Shown here in pieces: positions 41,072 to 48,179 of a stretch of 64,000 nt of DNA. The notes beneath the pieces were generated by a model, which worked only from the letters and a program-made list of their open reading frames with translations, had not been told where the DNA came from and did no database searches. The DNA is taken from NCBI RefSeq assembly GCF_036488675.1, contig NZ_CP133152.1:1116001-1180000 (forward strand). The letters run 5' to 3'. The stretch comes from Sinorhizobium chiapasense (lineage in GTDB: Bacteria; Pseudomonadota; Alphaproteobacteria; Rhizobiales; Rhizobiaceae). Each line of letters starts with the position of its first letter. The first letter of the stretch is position 1. The translations under genes and the position numbers were made by a program.

Positions 41072-41725
41072 TTAATACAAACAGTTTGTACGGACCAACA
41101 CTGTGAAGGGATCAAGCCCGAACTCCGCCTCGAGGTCGCTGCCGAACAGACCAAGCCATCGTTTCTGCGCTTCGAACGCTGTTTTCTCGCGTTCCTCGGC
41201 GCATGCAAACTTCAATCCTGCCACGTTCTGAATGTGGTGGACCATTTCGTGCACAAGCACGGAGAACTCCCCCGGCGTCTTCCCCGTCCACCCGTCCGGC
41301 AGATAGACCGTTCTTGCCTCATCATCGTAAACAGCCATGACGTCGGCTCCGTTCGCTAGGCGTGTCCAGATGGGCAGAGCCTCTCTCCATCGATCCAACG
41401 GCACGTCCCGATAGCGCAGACGGATCATGCGCTTGGCGGACGCGAATTCGATCGCAGGCGGTTCGTCGATGAGCGGAAGACCGAATTCCGACGAAAGCCA
41501 CGCCGCGATCACCTTCACCGCAGCCTGCCGCGAATGGTTGGGCTCTGACCCGAAAACGAAGGCATTGGGCTCGACAATGAGTCTGGTGCCCGGCAAGACT
41601 ATCTGTTTCGACGCGCCGCCAGAATTGACGTCGGGCTGTACCGGCTGTCCTGCTGATGCCGCCAGGGTCGTCGATGCGATTGCGCTGAAAATCCAGGGCA
41701 CAATTTGCTTCGTGAACGCGTGCAT
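41072..41725 (-). CDS. exported protein with HExxH metallopeptidase-like motif (DUF6647-like)
   Basis: 217 residues from ATG 41725. Residues 1-25 form a signal peptide (VPWIFSAIASTTLAASA). The central part has RLRYRDVPLDRW and VYDDEARTVYLPDGWTGKTP, followed by VLVHEMVHHIQN, a zinc-peptidase HExxH helix. A conserved-looking C-terminal ACAEEREKTAFEAQKRWL could supply the third ligand (Glu). The layout resembles the DUF6647 group of putative metallopeptidases. It is probably periplasmic; substrate unknown. It is isolated, with no operon partner. Confidence 0.68.
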   Translation of the reverse strand: MHAFTKQIVPWIFSAIASTTLAASAGQPVQPDVNSGGASKQIVLPGTRLIVEPNAFVFGSEPNHSRQAAVKVIAAWLSSEFGLPLIDEPPAIEFASAKRMIRLRYRDVPLDRWREALPIWTRLANGADVMAVYDDEARTVYLPDGWTGKTPGEFSVLVHEMVHHIQNVAGLKFACAEEREKTAFEAQKRWLGLFGSDLEAEFGLDPFTVLVRTNCLY

Positions 41726-42033
41726 GGGCGCGAACCTCTCTCGCCGGCGCTCGGATCGACACGCCGTGACAAATGGCTGGTCGGTCACAGAAAGGCTTCA
41801 GCTCCGCGTCAGAGTCAGCGAGCCCACGGGTCGTAACCGGCAGTCCATTCCCATGGCGGCAGGCTCACGCTACGCGCCGACCCGGTCGAGCGCATCGGTA
41901 CGGCTCCCCCAATTTCCCCACATCGCCTTCCGCAGGACTACCTAGATTTCGTGGGCTTACCGTCCATCTGCGACTGGGCGTGGCTAGGGCTCGCCTCGCA
42001 GGCGCGGGAGCACTTCCTTCCGGTTGGTAAGCA
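41726..42033. other. gene-free stretch upstream of the HU region
   Basis: No feature was recognised. It separates the leftward HExxH gene from the rightward HU locus, so it should hold their promoters. Confidence 0.4.
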
Positions 42034-42300: not shown

Positions 42301-44813
42301 ATGACTACAACCAACGAAATTGCAGACAAGATCGCAGCCGATCACAGCCTGACCAAGGCACAAAGTAAGGCGATCGTCGAGGCCGTCTTTGCCGCCATCA
42401 CCGCAGCCGCGACGTCCGGTGCCGAGACATCGATTCCAGGATTCGGGAAGTTCAGGGTCAGTGCGACGTGATAGTCGCCTAAGTAATTGTTTGTACAGGA
42501 GTTATATTCTGGGACAAACCTGATGTTCCGTCATCAGTAGCCTACCGGCACATGCGGGACTGGTAACGGTCCGGTGTGAAGCTGCCGGGACAATGTAGCC
42601 GGGCTTTCGGGCCATGCCGAGACCGTGAGGCGTAGGTATCTTCTGCGAGCATCAGCGCGGATGGGGCGCTAGGCTGGGTGGTATTGATCAATGGAAATGA
42701 ACTGCTGATAAACGTCGTGAAATTTGACAAGCCAAAGATGCTGACAGGCTTGGACCAAAAGGTGCGCGGTCGGATGTCTCCCTTGATTTTGGAGGCACAC
42801 GGACAACAGGACCGCCGGCGGATAGGCAGGATCTAACCCGCCCACGTTATCTAGGTGAAACACGGTAAACCCGTATCTCCGCCCCGCAGCGGGCAGGCCG
42901 ACCGCAAGGAAAGCTGTTGGGGGTGCGGGCAGAGGATGTCGGAGAAAGCGAACGCCGGGCTGTAATGATCCGGATAGGGGTTGCGGCTTGCCAACATCAC
43001 CCCGCCCGAAAGGGAGCAGACTTCTGACGGGTCTCTCGTCGCGAGAGAATGTGCAGAACCCTCGGAGGAGGACAGGCAAATGGCGGTCACAACAGTGACT
43101 GGTGCGGCCTCCCGCGAAACGGTGAGTTGGGGCCAGATCGACTGGCGCAAGGCTTACCAACACGTGCGACGGCTGCAGATGCGTATTGCGAAGGCAGTTC
43201 GGGAAGGTCGCTGGGGCAAGGTGCAAGCCTTGCAGCGGCTACTGACCCACTCGTTCAGCGGCAAGGCGCTTGCTGTGAAACGGGTTACCGAAAATCAGGG
43301 CAAGAGGACACCCGGAGTGGACCGGATCATCTGGGACACACCGGATAAGTGCGTCAGAGGATTATTGTCGCTCAAACGGCGTGGGTACCGCCCTCTGCCG
43401 TTGAGGCGGGTATATATCCCGAAGGCAAACAGCGAGAAGCTCCGTCCGCTGGGTATTCCGACGATGAAGGACAGAGCCATGCAGGCACTTCACCTGCTCG
43501 CCCTGCTACCTGTTGCGGAAACCACGGCAGACCCAAACTCGTACGGCTTCCGTCCGTTTCGAGCGACCCGTGATGCGGCTCGTCAGTGCTACATTGCACT
43601 GCGCGGGCGTGGTACGGCGGAATGGGTCTTGGACGCAGACATTGCTGGCTGCTTCGACGAAATCAGCAAGGACTGGCTCATCGCCAACATCCCTACGGAC
43701 AAGGCGGTGCTCCGGAAATGGCTGGACTCCGGCTACATGCAGGATGGTGATTGGTACGCGACACGAGCGGGAACGCCGCAAGGTGGAATAATCTCGCCCA
43801 CGCTCGCCAACATGGCCTTGGACGGAATGGAAAAGATGCTACGGGACCACTATGGCCCGCGACGCCGAAACATTCGGACCAAGGTGCACTTGATACGTTA
43901 CGCCGATGACTTCGTCGTCACTGGTGCTTCGAAAGAAGTGCTGGAAGAGGCGAAGTCTCTGGTCGAGGAATTTCTGTCAGAACGAGGTCTGTCTCTGTCT
44001 GAGGAAAAGACTCGCATCGTGCGGGTCGAGGAAGGCTTCGACTTCCTCGGTTGGAACGTGCGTAGATATGATGGACACACCCATATCAAGCCCGCCAAGA
44101 AGAACGTGGCGGCGTTCATGCGCAAGATCCGAACGATCATCAAGGCCGCCGCCGATGCGAAGCAGGAGCATCTGATAATGCGGCTCAACCCGGTCATCGG
44201 GGGATGGACCAATTATCATCACAACCAGGTGGCGAAGGAGACCTTCCGCAAGGTCGAGCATCTCATCTGGAAGTGTCTCTGGCAGTGGGCATGTCGCAGG
44301 CACCCAGATAAGCCACGTCGGTGGGTGAAGCATCGCTACTTCGCCCGCGAAGGCACGCGAGACTGGGTATTCCGCGCAGCAGTGAAGGATCGTGCCGGAA
44401 ACATCACGTTCCGGCGGCTACTCCATGCATCCGACGTTCCTATTCGTCGTCACTGCAAAATCCGAGCCGAAGCGAATCCGTTCAATCCGATGTGGGACCG
44501 CTACTTCGCCGCAAGGCGTGGTCTGCCGTCGGAAACTACGGATCGGCCTGGGGAAACCGCACACTCTGCCGATAGACAGGAACTGGCGGCTCTGGTCAAA
44601 CAGGGCTTAGTGGAGGCTTGAGCCGTATGCGGGGAAACTCGCACGTACGGTTCTTAGGGAGGAGCGACCCGGCAACGGGTCGTTCCTACCCGACAGGACA
44701 CGCCGGAGCGAGAGGCGCGCAATCCCGCGACGGGCGCGATAATCAAGGTGGCCGCCGCAAAGAAGCTGACCTTCGGGTCGGCGAAGGCACTCAAGGACGC
44801 ATTGAACAGGTAA
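42301..44813 (+). CDS. HU-family DNA-binding protein, split by a group II intron (exons 42301-42460 and 44695-44813)
   Basis: Exon 1 encodes 53 residues plus one base (start MTTTNEIADKIAADHSLTKA, end IPGFGKFRV). Exon 2 supplies AG to complete a Lys codon and continues DTPEREARNPATGAIIKVAA to the stop at 44811-44813. The joined product is 92 residues, exactly the length and sequence pattern of HU/IHF-like histone-like proteins. This includes the beta-arm RNPATG with its conserved Pro that intercalates in DNA. HU is a homodimer or heterodimer that bends DNA and compacts the nucleoid. Without splicing, translation stops two codons into the intron. GAGGGG precedes the ATG. Confidence 0.9.
43080..44621 (+). 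CDS. ltrA: group II intron-encoded reverse transcriptase/maturase
   Basis: 513 residues from ATG 43080, preceded by GGAGGAGGAC. RT blocks are visible: VDRIIWDTPDK, LRRVYIPKANSEKLRPLGIP, SYGFRPFRATRDAAR, VLDADIAGCFDEI, GTPQGGIISPTLANM and the catalytic LIRYADDFVV (Y274-A-D276-D277). The maturase X domain follows (NPVIGGWTNYHH, FRKVEHLIWKCLWQWA). The protein ends soon after IRRHCKIRAEANPFNPMWDR, with no HNH cysteine or histidine pairs, so it lacks the C-terminal endonuclease domain. The stop lies at the first bases of intron domain V. Confidence 0.93.
   Translation: MAVTTVTGAASRETVSWGQIDWRKAYQHVRRLQMRIAKAVREGRWGKVQALQRLLTHSFSGKALAVKRVTENQGKRTPGVDRIIWDTPDKCVRGLLSLKRRGYRPLPLRRVYIPKANSEKLRPLGIPTMKDRAMQALHLLALLPVAETTADPNSYGFRPFRATRDAARQCYIALRGRGTAEWVLDADIAGCFDEISKDWLIANIPTDKAVLRKWLDSGYMQDGDWYATRAGTPQGGIISPTLANMALDGMEKMLRDHYGPRRRNIRTKVHLIRYADDFVVTGASKEVLEEAKSLVEEFLSERGLSLSEEKTRIVRVEEGFDFLGWNVRRYDGHTHIKPAKKNVAAFMRKIRTIIKAAADAKQEHLIMRLNPVIGGWTNYHHNQVAKETFRKVEHLIWKCLWQWACRRHPDKPRRWVKHRYFAREGTRDWVFRAAVKDRAGNITFRRLLHASDVPIRRHCKIRAEANPFNPMWDRYFAARRGLPSETTDRPGETAHSADRQELAALVKQGLVEA
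44620..44653 (+). ncRNA. group II intron domain V catalytic hairpin
   Basis: This is a 34-nt hairpin: GAGCCGTATGCGGGG, a GAAA tetraloop, then CTCGCACGTACGGTTC. It is the most conserved part of group II ribozymes and binds the catalytic metals. It starts at the stop codon of the maturase gene. Confidence 0.9.
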
Positions 44814-44823
44814 TTCGATTGCA

Positions 44824-44853
44824 GGAGAAGCCTTGTCCTTTCAAGGCTTCTCC
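44824..44853 (+). terminator. 12-bp perfect hairpin after HU exon 2
   Basis: GGAGAAGCCTTG and CAAGGCTTCTCC pair perfectly around a 6-base loop, 10 bases after the HU stop. There is no T-run after the stem (CAGAGCG follows), so it may act as a weak or Rho-assisted terminator or protect the mRNA 3' end. Confidence 0.6.
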
Positions 44854-46096: not shown

Positions 46097-46429
46097 TTAT
46101 TTTGCCGGGGGCTTGTAGGAAGATGCGATTTTGCCCGCCTTTTCTTGGGCCGCCTTGAATTCCGCGCCCGTATATGCTCGTACGGTTTTGATATTCGATG
46201 CTGCCCCCGATGCGGCGACGACGAGAAGCGGCGGGATCAGGTCAGCACCGTCGTCGAATTCCGTGATTGCCATCCAGTCGGTTTCGCCGGTCGTGAGATA
46301 GAAAGAATGCAGTTTCCCGCCTGCCGCTTCCATGATGGCACGGGCCGCCTTTTCTCGGTTCGTTGGATTGTCAATCATTCCCTTCGCAGATGTGGCTGAA
46401 TAGCACCCTGTGGTTATGAACAGTGGCAT
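46097..46429 (-). CDS. GYD-domain protein
   Basis: 110 residues, the full GYD family length, with GGGAGGAT before ATG 46429. The start MPLFITTGCYSATSAKGMID, AGGKLHSFYLTTGETDWMAI (the position of the family G-x-Y/D motif) and the end VRAYTGAEF match this ferredoxin-like fold. Biochemical function is unknown; relatives are common in soil alphaproteobacteria. It is a single gene. Confidence 0.82.
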   Translation of the reverse strand: MPLFITTGCYSATSAKGMIDNPTNREKAARAIMEAAGGKLHSFYLTTGETDWMAITEFDDGADLIPPLLVVAASGAASNIKTVRAYTGAEFKAAQEKAGKIASSYKPPAK

Positions 46430-47144: not shown

Positions 47145-48179
47145 TCATGCTGCAGCCTCCGATCCGAACCGGAACTCTGTACCGTCAATCCACATGCGAT
47201 GCAGAACGACGGCAATCTTTCGGGCGACGGCTACGATGGCTCGTCGGCGTCCCTTGGTCTTCATCAGCCGCACGCCCCAGGCCTTCAAGCTATTCCAGGC
47301 AATCGAGCGCATGAGCATCGCATTGGCGGCGGCATAAAGTGTCGCCCGCACGTCGGCGTCTCCGGCGTGAGAGATGCGACCAGGGTTGTCCTTCTCGCCA
47401 GACTGGAACCTTCGCGGCGTCAATCCGAAGTGAGCGCCGACGGTACGCGAACTTCTGAAGCGCGCGGGATCATCAACCGCAGCCTTGAAGCTCAAGGCCG
47501 TTACGTACCCAACACCAGGAACACTCATAAACCGCGCGGTGACGGCGTCTCGCTTCGCGACCCTTCGGACTCGTCGATCGAGTTCGAGGAAGATTTCCAG
47601 GAGCATTTGCCTAGCTTCCAGCAGCGGGAGTAACGCGTGGCTCAACGCCGGATCGCCTTCGATTGTGCCGCGGACAGCCGTTTCGAATGCGCCACCTCGC
47701 AGCCGCATCGGCAGCTTGACGCCGAAGACTTTGAGGAGGCCGCGAATCTCGTTTTCAAGATCAATGCATTTCCTTTGCATGACCTTGCGGCTGGAGAGGA
47801 GTGCACGGATGTAATGGCTTTCGACACTCTTCACAAGCACCCGGCTGTACCAACCCGATCGCAGCAGTTGGGCTATGCCACGGGCGTCGTTCTTGTCAGT
47901 CTTGTTCCGCATGGCCGAAAGAGCGGCATTGACTTGACGCGCCTCCATGCGCACGACATCGAAACTAGCCTCCGTCAAGCCGTAGGTTAAGTGCTGAGTG
48001 AGCGTACCAGCCTCAAGCCCGACTTGATGAATCTGTTCGCCGAAATCGTTCAGGCAGCGAACAAGGTCTGGCAAGTCAGATGGCACCGACCGCTCAAGTC
48101 TGACTTTCCCGGTTTCGTCAATAATGCAGATCGCCACTGAGCGCAGTGACACGTCCAACGCAGCATAGAACATCGTCAT
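47145..48179 (-). mobile_element. IS110-family transposase gene
   Basis: 344 residues. The N-terminal RuvC-like DEDD site is visible at Asp9 (ALDVS), Glu56 (GLEAG), Asp95 and Asp98 (KTDKNDARG). The C-terminal Transposase_20 domain contains SVPGVGYVTALSF and TVGAHFGLTPRRFQSGEKDN, the region with the conserved Ser. The reading frame appears intact, so the element may still move. IS110 elements lack ordinary inverted repeats and use an end-derived bridge RNA, so the boundaries and the guide RNA could not be fixed by eye. It lies between a broken chrA and a broken recombinase. Confidence 0.93.

Follow-up and report, generated by a model that had tools for sequence, protein, structure and literature searches.

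A group II intron interrupts an HU-family gene of Sinorhizobium chiapasense and recurs at the same site in HU genes of several genera

An HU-family gene split by a group II intron

The 64,000-bp stretch of Sinorhizobium chiapasense DNA analysed here (hereafter the window) corresponds to positions 1116001-1180000 of contig C5 (1.63 Mb), in a genome of 6.87 Mb that comprises five contigs, among them C1 of 4.34 Mb. On its plus strand, a 2,234-bp group II intron (42461-44694) interrupts a gene of the HU family of DNA-binding proteins. The intron begins at 42461 with GTGCGACG and ends at 44694 with CCTACCCGAC, and the exons on either side (160 nt and 119 nt, respectively) join in frame to encode a 92-aa HU-family protein, MTTTNEIADKIAADHSLTKAQSKAIVEAVFAAITAAATSGAETSIPGFGKFRVKDTPEREARNPATGAIIKVAAAKKLTFGSAKALKDALNR. 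The junction falls within codon 54, a lysine codon to which the 5' exon contributes A and the 3' exon AG, and the joined sequence would read AGGGTCA followed directly by AGGACACG. Without splicing, the HU frame ends within the intron after 56 codons, which would give a 56-aa truncated HU. In Pfam, the product of the joined exons is recognised by PF00216 (86.4 bits, residues 3-91 of 92). In NCBIfam, it scores below the thresholds of the HU-alpha and HU-beta models and of those for both integration host factor (IHF) subunits; the assignment extends to the HU family and no further. An earlier reading of this stretch (the original prediction) had proposed a complete intron at these coordinates, inserted cleanly in a gene whose 92-aa HU product has one Lys codon spanning the exon boundary, and the borders, Rfam, and Pfam agree with it.

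The features of the split gene and of the intron are as follows (EBS, exon-binding site; IBS, intron-binding site; IEP, intron-encoded protein).

42301-42460, plus strand: 5' exon of the HU-family gene, codons 1-53 and the first base of codon 54
42447-42452, plus strand: IBS2, exon positions -14 to -9, pairing 5/6 with EBS2
42455-42460, plus strand: IBS1, exon positions -6 to -1, GGGTCA, pairing 6/6 with EBS1 (three G-U)
42461-44694, plus strand: group II intron, 2,234 bp, from its borders, Rfam, and end-to-end relatives
42519-42668, plus strand: 5' part of the ribozyme, RF02012 (D1-D4-7), Rfam, 126.5 bits
42721-42726, plus strand: EBS2, AATTTG, from covariation over 18 introns
42784-42789, plus strand: EBS1, TGATTT, from covariation over 18 introns
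42823, plus strand: EBS3, T pairing with A at +1, from covariation over 18 introns
43080-44621, plus strand: IEP, 513 aa, with RVT_N, RVT_1 (YADD), and GIIM domains
44620-44653, plus strand: domain V hairpin, from Rfam and folding
44657-44691, plus strand: domain VI hairpin, in which folding leaves one A bulged at 44688 (7 nt from the 3' end)
44695-44813, plus strand: 3' exon, remainder of codon 54 to the stop; its first base is IBS3

In addition to RF02012, RF00029 matches at 44618-44694 (66.1 bits), and both matches exceed the Rfam gathering scores. The stretch comprising domains V and VI (D5-D6) folds at z = -8.6, and the bulged A at 44688 is likely the branch point. The IEP matches PF00078, PF13655, and PF08388 in Pfam and scores 358 bits against TIGR04416, the group II reverse transcriptase/maturase equivalog (cut-off 300). 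Its best solved match is PDB 6me0, with 631 bits over residues 1-483, compared to just 128 bits for LtrA; judged by this closeness to a solved protein, the IEP is best described as a CL-like reverse transcriptase/maturase. A third exon contact, EBS3-IBS3, was found by covariation (alignment column 374), and a passage of PMC3898094 associates the EBS3 contact with group IIB. By these features, the element is interpreted as a complete, standard group IIB retrohoming intron of CL-like type.

Downstream of the split gene, a consensus scan of the plus strand found no intrinsic terminator, and an inverted repeat at about 44823-44852 lacks a T-run, as judged by eye. Of the 3' exon, terminator, and reading frame that had been thought intact, the exon and the frame are confirmed and the terminator is not.

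Exon recognition and covariation

The first 640 nt of the intron were scanned for covariation with the 5' exons of 18 introns, which have both HU and non-HU targets. EBS1 makes 102/108 pairs over the 18 introns (permutation mean 69.0) and 84/90 pairs over the 15 unique combinations (53.7), and EBS2 makes 95/108 (71.2); in each case, 0 of 20,000 permutations equalled the observed number. These permutation counts are a guide and not a probability, because the sequences are related and the 18 introns used for counting also served to locate the sites, and that for EBS2 is optimistic in that its register was picked after the scan. EBS3 forms a Watson-Crick pair with exon base +1 in 17 of the 18 introns, the best of all columns scanned. 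The sole intron that fails to form this pair is at locus L018, and the 3' ends of L018-L020, set one base past the end of the blastn match, could be off by one base. Since the set includes unrelated targets, the covariation supports the 5' and 3' borders independently of the reading frame. Guesses made by eye for EBS1 and EBS2 (TTGATC and GAACT, near intron position 230) were dropped, as covariation places EBS1 at intron positions 324-329 and EBS2 at 261-266.

Recurrence at the same HU site

Relatives of the IEP were examined in genome contigs (the best 80 of 572 relatives), along with plasmid loci (eight of 1,632 records, H1 and H5-H11, without H2-H4, which are of the same genus as H1, within 40 bases in record size, and within 0.1% in identity), and HU halves at the intron ends were detected with a six-frame HU profile. 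Such halves flank the intron in eight of the best 80 genomic loci (L009, L011-L016, and L022) and in six of the eight plasmid loci (L105-L110). The contig of L009 has just the 3' HU half, its 5' counterpart being found on a different contig (L178). With the window included, there are 15 loci and 11 distinct HU genes (L012, L013, L014, and L106 are one gene, as are L107 and L109), and the insertion point is identical in each. The hosts belong to Rhizobium, Ensifer, Bradyrhizobium, Agrobacterium, and Sphingobium. The insertion is thus not an isolated event, as one intron lineage occupies this HU site across several genera.

The 14 recurrent introns are 85.6-99.5% identical to the window intron (L009 over 2,020 nt), which is itself a single copy in its own genome and aligns with 16 relatives over its full length (1-2234) as a single blastn piece. 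The joined HU is open in frame, at 91 or 92 aa, in all 14 loci that have both halves on one contig (window included). Two relics at the same HU site, L172 and L173, consist of truncated introns (nt 1-131 and 1-68, respectively). L172 (2091-2384, A. vitis pRvVAR0630b) is a second HU gene on its plasmid, in which the match ends after the first 131 intron nucleotides; its annotation is that of an HU family protein, with a length of 174 nt (57 aa).

All eight plasmids examined, six of which have the split HU, are typed as conjugative by PLSDB, and five of them (L105-L109) share the order WGR, split HU, DUF736. Annotation may be affected by the insertion, as the gene tables for L105-L110, which omit pseudogenes, show no HU gene at the split site; the original records may carry the HU exons as pseudogenes.

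The HU-split arrangement is rare. The junction pattern was found in 1 of 385 class-level genomes, this being the window's own, and gave 0 matches in the viral contigs searched. Any match to the intron DNA was seen in 11 of 397 genomes of the order sample and in 34 of 394 of the family sample, and no full-length match was found in these samples outside the window's own genome. Of the partial matches in the family sample, stretches from two genomes (G462 and G634) were inspected; there was one relic, L173 in G462. Five phage matches were also seen.

Other HU genes and the status of the split copy

The search of the genome for further HU genes that the original prediction had suggested was productive: PF00216 identifies five other intact HU/IHF-family genes, which by resemblance are HupB-like (L001), IHF-beta-like (L002 and L003), IHF-alpha-like (L004), and a close paralog of the split gene (L005). 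This paralog is uninterrupted and sits on the 279-kb contig C3 (as L005/L176), next to an open reading frame (ORF) that we take to be DUF736-like. It reads GKFKVKDTPEREARN straight through the insertion point, which is the clean empty site expected from an intron-free relative. Together with the 14 other loci that have the same junction and with the pairing of EBS1, EBS2, and EBS3 to the exon ends, it indicates that the rejoined frame is not coincidental.

Of the 72,556 records in a plasmid collection, 616 contain a single place that covers at least 80% of the split-gene protein, and many of the 60 plasmid matches listed are labelled "HU family DNA-binding protein". In view of the uninterrupted paralog and the frequency of similar HU genes in that collection, the split gene is best seen as an accessory, plasmid-type HU; with five other intact HU/IHF-family genes, it is not the sole or core HU copy of this genome. 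For the same reason, only the output of the split copy could depend on splicing, and the proposed dependence of HU output on the ribozyme therefore holds at most for this accessory copy and not for the HU of the whole cell. Passages of PMC4424553 and PMC6003770 place bacterial group II introns mostly outside housekeeping genes. The contrast that had been drawn, between introns in mobile or non-coding DNA and this one in a conserved gene, needs qualifying, since the site is still mobile territory, with six related split genes on plasmids typed as conjugative.

Recent homing and the intron tree

Intron identities and exon identities are decoupled. The window and L110 introns are 99.5% identical and their exons 78.9%; the two HU genes L011 and L013 of R. 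freirei PRF 81 have introns that are 100% identical and exons that are 75.3% identical; and L015 and L016 of Sphingobium have introns that are 100% identical and exons that are 69.6% identical. Such near-identical introns (99.5-100%) inside diverged HU genes (70-79%) support recent homing between divergent HU genes, and this comparison points to retrohoming to a defined site. The suggestion that either splicing works or the insertion is recent was thus well founded, and these identities back the recent homing.

A tree was built for 22 introns (without the duplicates L012, L013, L015, and L106); 12 of them form one clade with a support of 100/100, and 11 of those 12 are in HU genes. Adjacent branches have other sites. 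L018-L020 (from Komagataeibacter, a Porticoccus metagenome-assembled genome, and Sphingobium) are at the 3' end of genes that we take to be tonB-like, at one shared motif, VPVEF[FY]; L017 (antisense) and L111 are in what are presumably IS66-transposase-like genes; and L112 is antisense to a gene annotated as strawberry-notch. Therefore, the lineage has other targets and the HU habit is that of one clade, with tonB-like genes apparently forming a second conserved-gene target within the same lineage.

No HNH endonuclease domain was found in the window IEP by Pfam search and comparison of C-termini, and no HNH-like motif was found in the HU-clade C-termini compared (window, L009-L016, L022, and L105-L109) or in those of L017-L020, L111, and L112. 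The motif is present in L021 and, at a greater distance, in L024, L025, L027-L032, L034, L035, and L050, and the domain was thus probably lost before the HU clade arose. Class CL is described in a passage of PMC4424553 as containing some introns without the endonuclease domain.

Target specificity and the Val-codon wobble base

Within the HU clade, the EBS1 base opposite the third position of the target Val codon covaries with it. The contact is C-G in the window, L110, L022, L105, L108, and L009 (EBS1 of L009, TGACCT), G-C in L011 and L014, and G-U in L015, L016, and L107, and it is mismatched only in L109. In the uninterrupted paralog L005, the Val codon is GTG, the third base of which is left unpaired by the window EBS1.

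Pairing was scored for 37 intact HU/IHF genes (5 from the window's own genome and 32 from other genomes), of which L190 gave no motif; "accessory" HU refers here to proteins with a GKF motif. Out of 13 contacts, 10 occupied sites score 11-13, the eight accessory HU genes that are empty in these genomes or plasmids score 11-12, and the 28 other HU/IHF genes score 2-11 and mostly pair poorly. Two of these 28 score 2, which is probably a poor fit of the motif rule, and the Bradyrhizobium genes of G771, none of the accessory kind, were scored with the EBS1 of L105 and not with that of L009. EBS1 pairing is perfect at 10/12 occupied sites versus 2/8 empty accessory genes (p = 0.02), and the Val wobble base (GTC/GTG) pairs at 11/12 versus 3/8 (Fisher p = 0.02; without L009, 10/11 occupied sites and p = 0.04); both tests are post hoc, on a small and partly related sample in which L107 and L109 are counted separately. 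Two empty accessory genes, L183 and L188, fully match EBS1 and yet are unoccupied. It is a tentative possibility that the lineage is dedicated to HU genes of conjugative plasmids, with the Val wobble base acting as a lock by which a silent change shields one paralog, and with a plasmid nucleoid protein perhaps under splicing control.

Homing, splicing, and alternative explanations

The explanation that we consider highly probable is that a CL-like group IIB retrohoming lineage has settled in the HU gene of conjugative plasmids of the rhizobial type, and that maturase-aided splicing would restore HU. The exact junction, the recurrent site, the exon-intron covariation, and the recent movement between divergent HU genes are supported by sequence comparison. 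The ribozyme would recognise, via EBS1, EBS2, and EBS3, the sequence for the conserved HU motif G-F-G-K-F-K-V with the insertion point before the next K, and the intron would reverse-splice into this site and then be copied by its own reverse transcriptase, which, given the absence of an HNH endonuclease, probably primes on nascent strands. After transcription, the intron would splice out with the aid of the maturase and leave a normal 92-aa HU mRNA, such that the carrier gene would still work and the intron would be tolerated. Functional splicing in the copies with an intact IEP is, taken by itself, likely. In favour of continued use of the split gene, the exons of the orthologous pair L107/L109 differ at 2/279 positions and the flanks at 41/876 (Fisher p = 0.0009), a pattern that ongoing constraint would produce, and an orthologous Bradyrhizobium pair has 23 synonymous versus 10 nonsynonymous changes (omega 0.11).

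Several observations weigh against this explanation, or against its splicing component. L010 (Rhizobium sp. 18055) is nested in the HU clade but lies outside HU, at a site that pairs 5/6 with EBS1 and has an ABC-transporter-ATPase-like frame (named by resemblance) on the opposite strand. Exon and intron divergence do not differ significantly between L107 and L109 (2/279 versus 42/2230, p = 0.22). The introns of the Bradyrhizobium pair are more alike (96.0% over 2,020 nt and 91.2% over 216 nt) than the exons (86-89%), and part of the exon history may thus predate insertion. Similarly, dN/dS values of 0.04-0.22 between split HU genes are no proof of post-insertion selection and largely reflect time before insertion, since intron sequences resemble each other far more closely than exon sequences do. 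In L110 (2501-4363, Rhizobium sp. CB3090 pCB3090_2), 371 intron nucleotides are missing and the IEP is broken, and in L107 (2501-4732, A. vitis CG957 pUnnamed2), for which no ltrA gene is listed in the gene table, the IEP frame stops after 107 codons. The HU exons are intact in both, and because of the broken IEPs their HU may stay unspliced unless maturase is supplied in trans. By comparison, the copy on pRtrCIAT899b of Rhizobium tropici CIAT 899 (L106) has an IEP frame of 506 codons. Finally, in B. oropedii (L178, G771:C31, with L009), CTG replaces the ATG start and the usual stop is lost, which reflects decay or an unusual start and is a hint of the former.

Many of these points would also fit a parasite in a dispensable gene, which homes to HU and splices poorly or never, and which is tolerated since the split HU is redundant, the exons being young and not functional. 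Homing is common to this account and to homing with splicing, and they differ in splicing efficiency; the likelihoods given for the two overlap and are not meant to be added up. Intact HU/IHF genes are retained (five in the window's own genome and 2-6 in each of the seven genomes G771-G777), recent homing would have left the exons little time to decay, and the broken IEPs of L110 and L107, the B. oropedii copy without an ATG start, and the two relics without the rest of the intron are what such a parasite would leave. This account is nevertheless rather improbable, given that the exons are open in 14/14 loci, that the L107/L109 exons are more conserved than their flanks, that the Bradyrhizobium pair has an excess of synonymous changes (part of which may be pre-insertion), and that the ribozyme ends and the maturase of the window are intact.

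That the insertion is a chance, one-off retrotransposition into HU, with in-frame rejoining as the trivial result of a clean insertion, is extremely improbable. Any precise insertion does rejoin in frame once removed, and the arrangement is rare at 1/385 class-level genomes, but the same site is occupied at 15 loci, which represent 11 distinct HU genes, in addition to the two relics, and the 100/100 clade that holds 12 of the 22 tree introns has 11 of them in HU. A single ancient insertion into an ancestral plasmid HU, carried along with the plasmid, would account for the near identity of L012, L013, and L014 to L106 (99.98-100% over 5.0-7.5 kb, including flanks) and for the flanks shared within L107/L109 and within the Bradyrhizobium pair. 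As the sole history, however, it is very improbable, because movement between HU genes is required by the decoupled intron and exon identities (introns 99.5-100% identical in HU genes that are 70-79% identical), by the identical intron in two different R. freirei HU genes, and by the frequency of uninterrupted HU genes of the split-gene type on plasmids.

Relation to known group II introns

The mechanism would be that of standard group IIB retrohoming together with splicing, and the HU target and its recurrence are new relative to the open-licence literature searched: among the matches listed in open-licence PMC literature (titles and the starts of abstracts, subscription papers excluded), no description of a group II intron in an HU gene was found. 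The closest solved relative, 6me0, is what we take to be a Thermosynechococcus elongatus intron maturase, and EcI5 of E. coli is presumably another relative. CL-type IIB introns of this kind share with the window intron the reverse transcriptase and maturase domains, EBS1/EBS2/EBS3 recognition, and D5/D6; HNH is usual there but not universal, and the window IEP is without it.

The A.v.I1 intron of Azotobacter reportedly lies in groEL, an essential gene, at the stop codon. Like the window element, it is a CL intron that is said to occupy a conserved protein gene of a proteobacterium, whereas the window element is in an accessory HU, in mid-codon, and recurs across genera. A.v.I1 is listed as CL1A in a portion of PMC3552965. 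Ll.LtrB, according to a passage of PMC6003770, sits in a conjugative relaxase gene. From what that passage covers, it resembles the window lineage as an intron in a conjugative-plasmid gene with effects on expression of the host gene, and it differs in its relaxase target from the window intron, which has an HU target, is IIB/CL-like, and has no HNH. Ll.LtrB is of group IIA/ML type and has an endonuclease. RmInt1 of Sinorhizobium meliloti is not known to carry an endonuclease domain and homes to an insertion sequence, in contrast to the HU genes targeted by the window clade. A passage of PMC3898094 presents RmInt1 as being, like the window element, a rhizobial IIB-type mobile intron with EBS1/2/3 recognition, and associates it with target DNA that is single-stranded during replication.

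A clade that is found recurrently in a conserved coding motif, in frame and with poor pairing to the cell's other HU/IHF genes, illustrates how an intron may live at low cost inside protein genes. It also offers a setting in nature where one can study if a single synonymous base is able to decide the choice of target, and if the dosage of a plasmid nucleoid protein is tied to splicing. L110 is a natural intron copy without its own maturase that is 99.5% identical to the window intron.

Neighbourhood of the split gene in the window

Seven nearby ORFs of the window were scanned, and none of them proved to be a WGR or DUF736 gene like those that adjoin the split HU on plasmids. The neighbours of the split HU gene include the following.

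47145-48179, minus strand: IS110-type transposase
41072-41788, minus strand: DUF6647 protein
46097-46429, minus strand: GYD-domain protein

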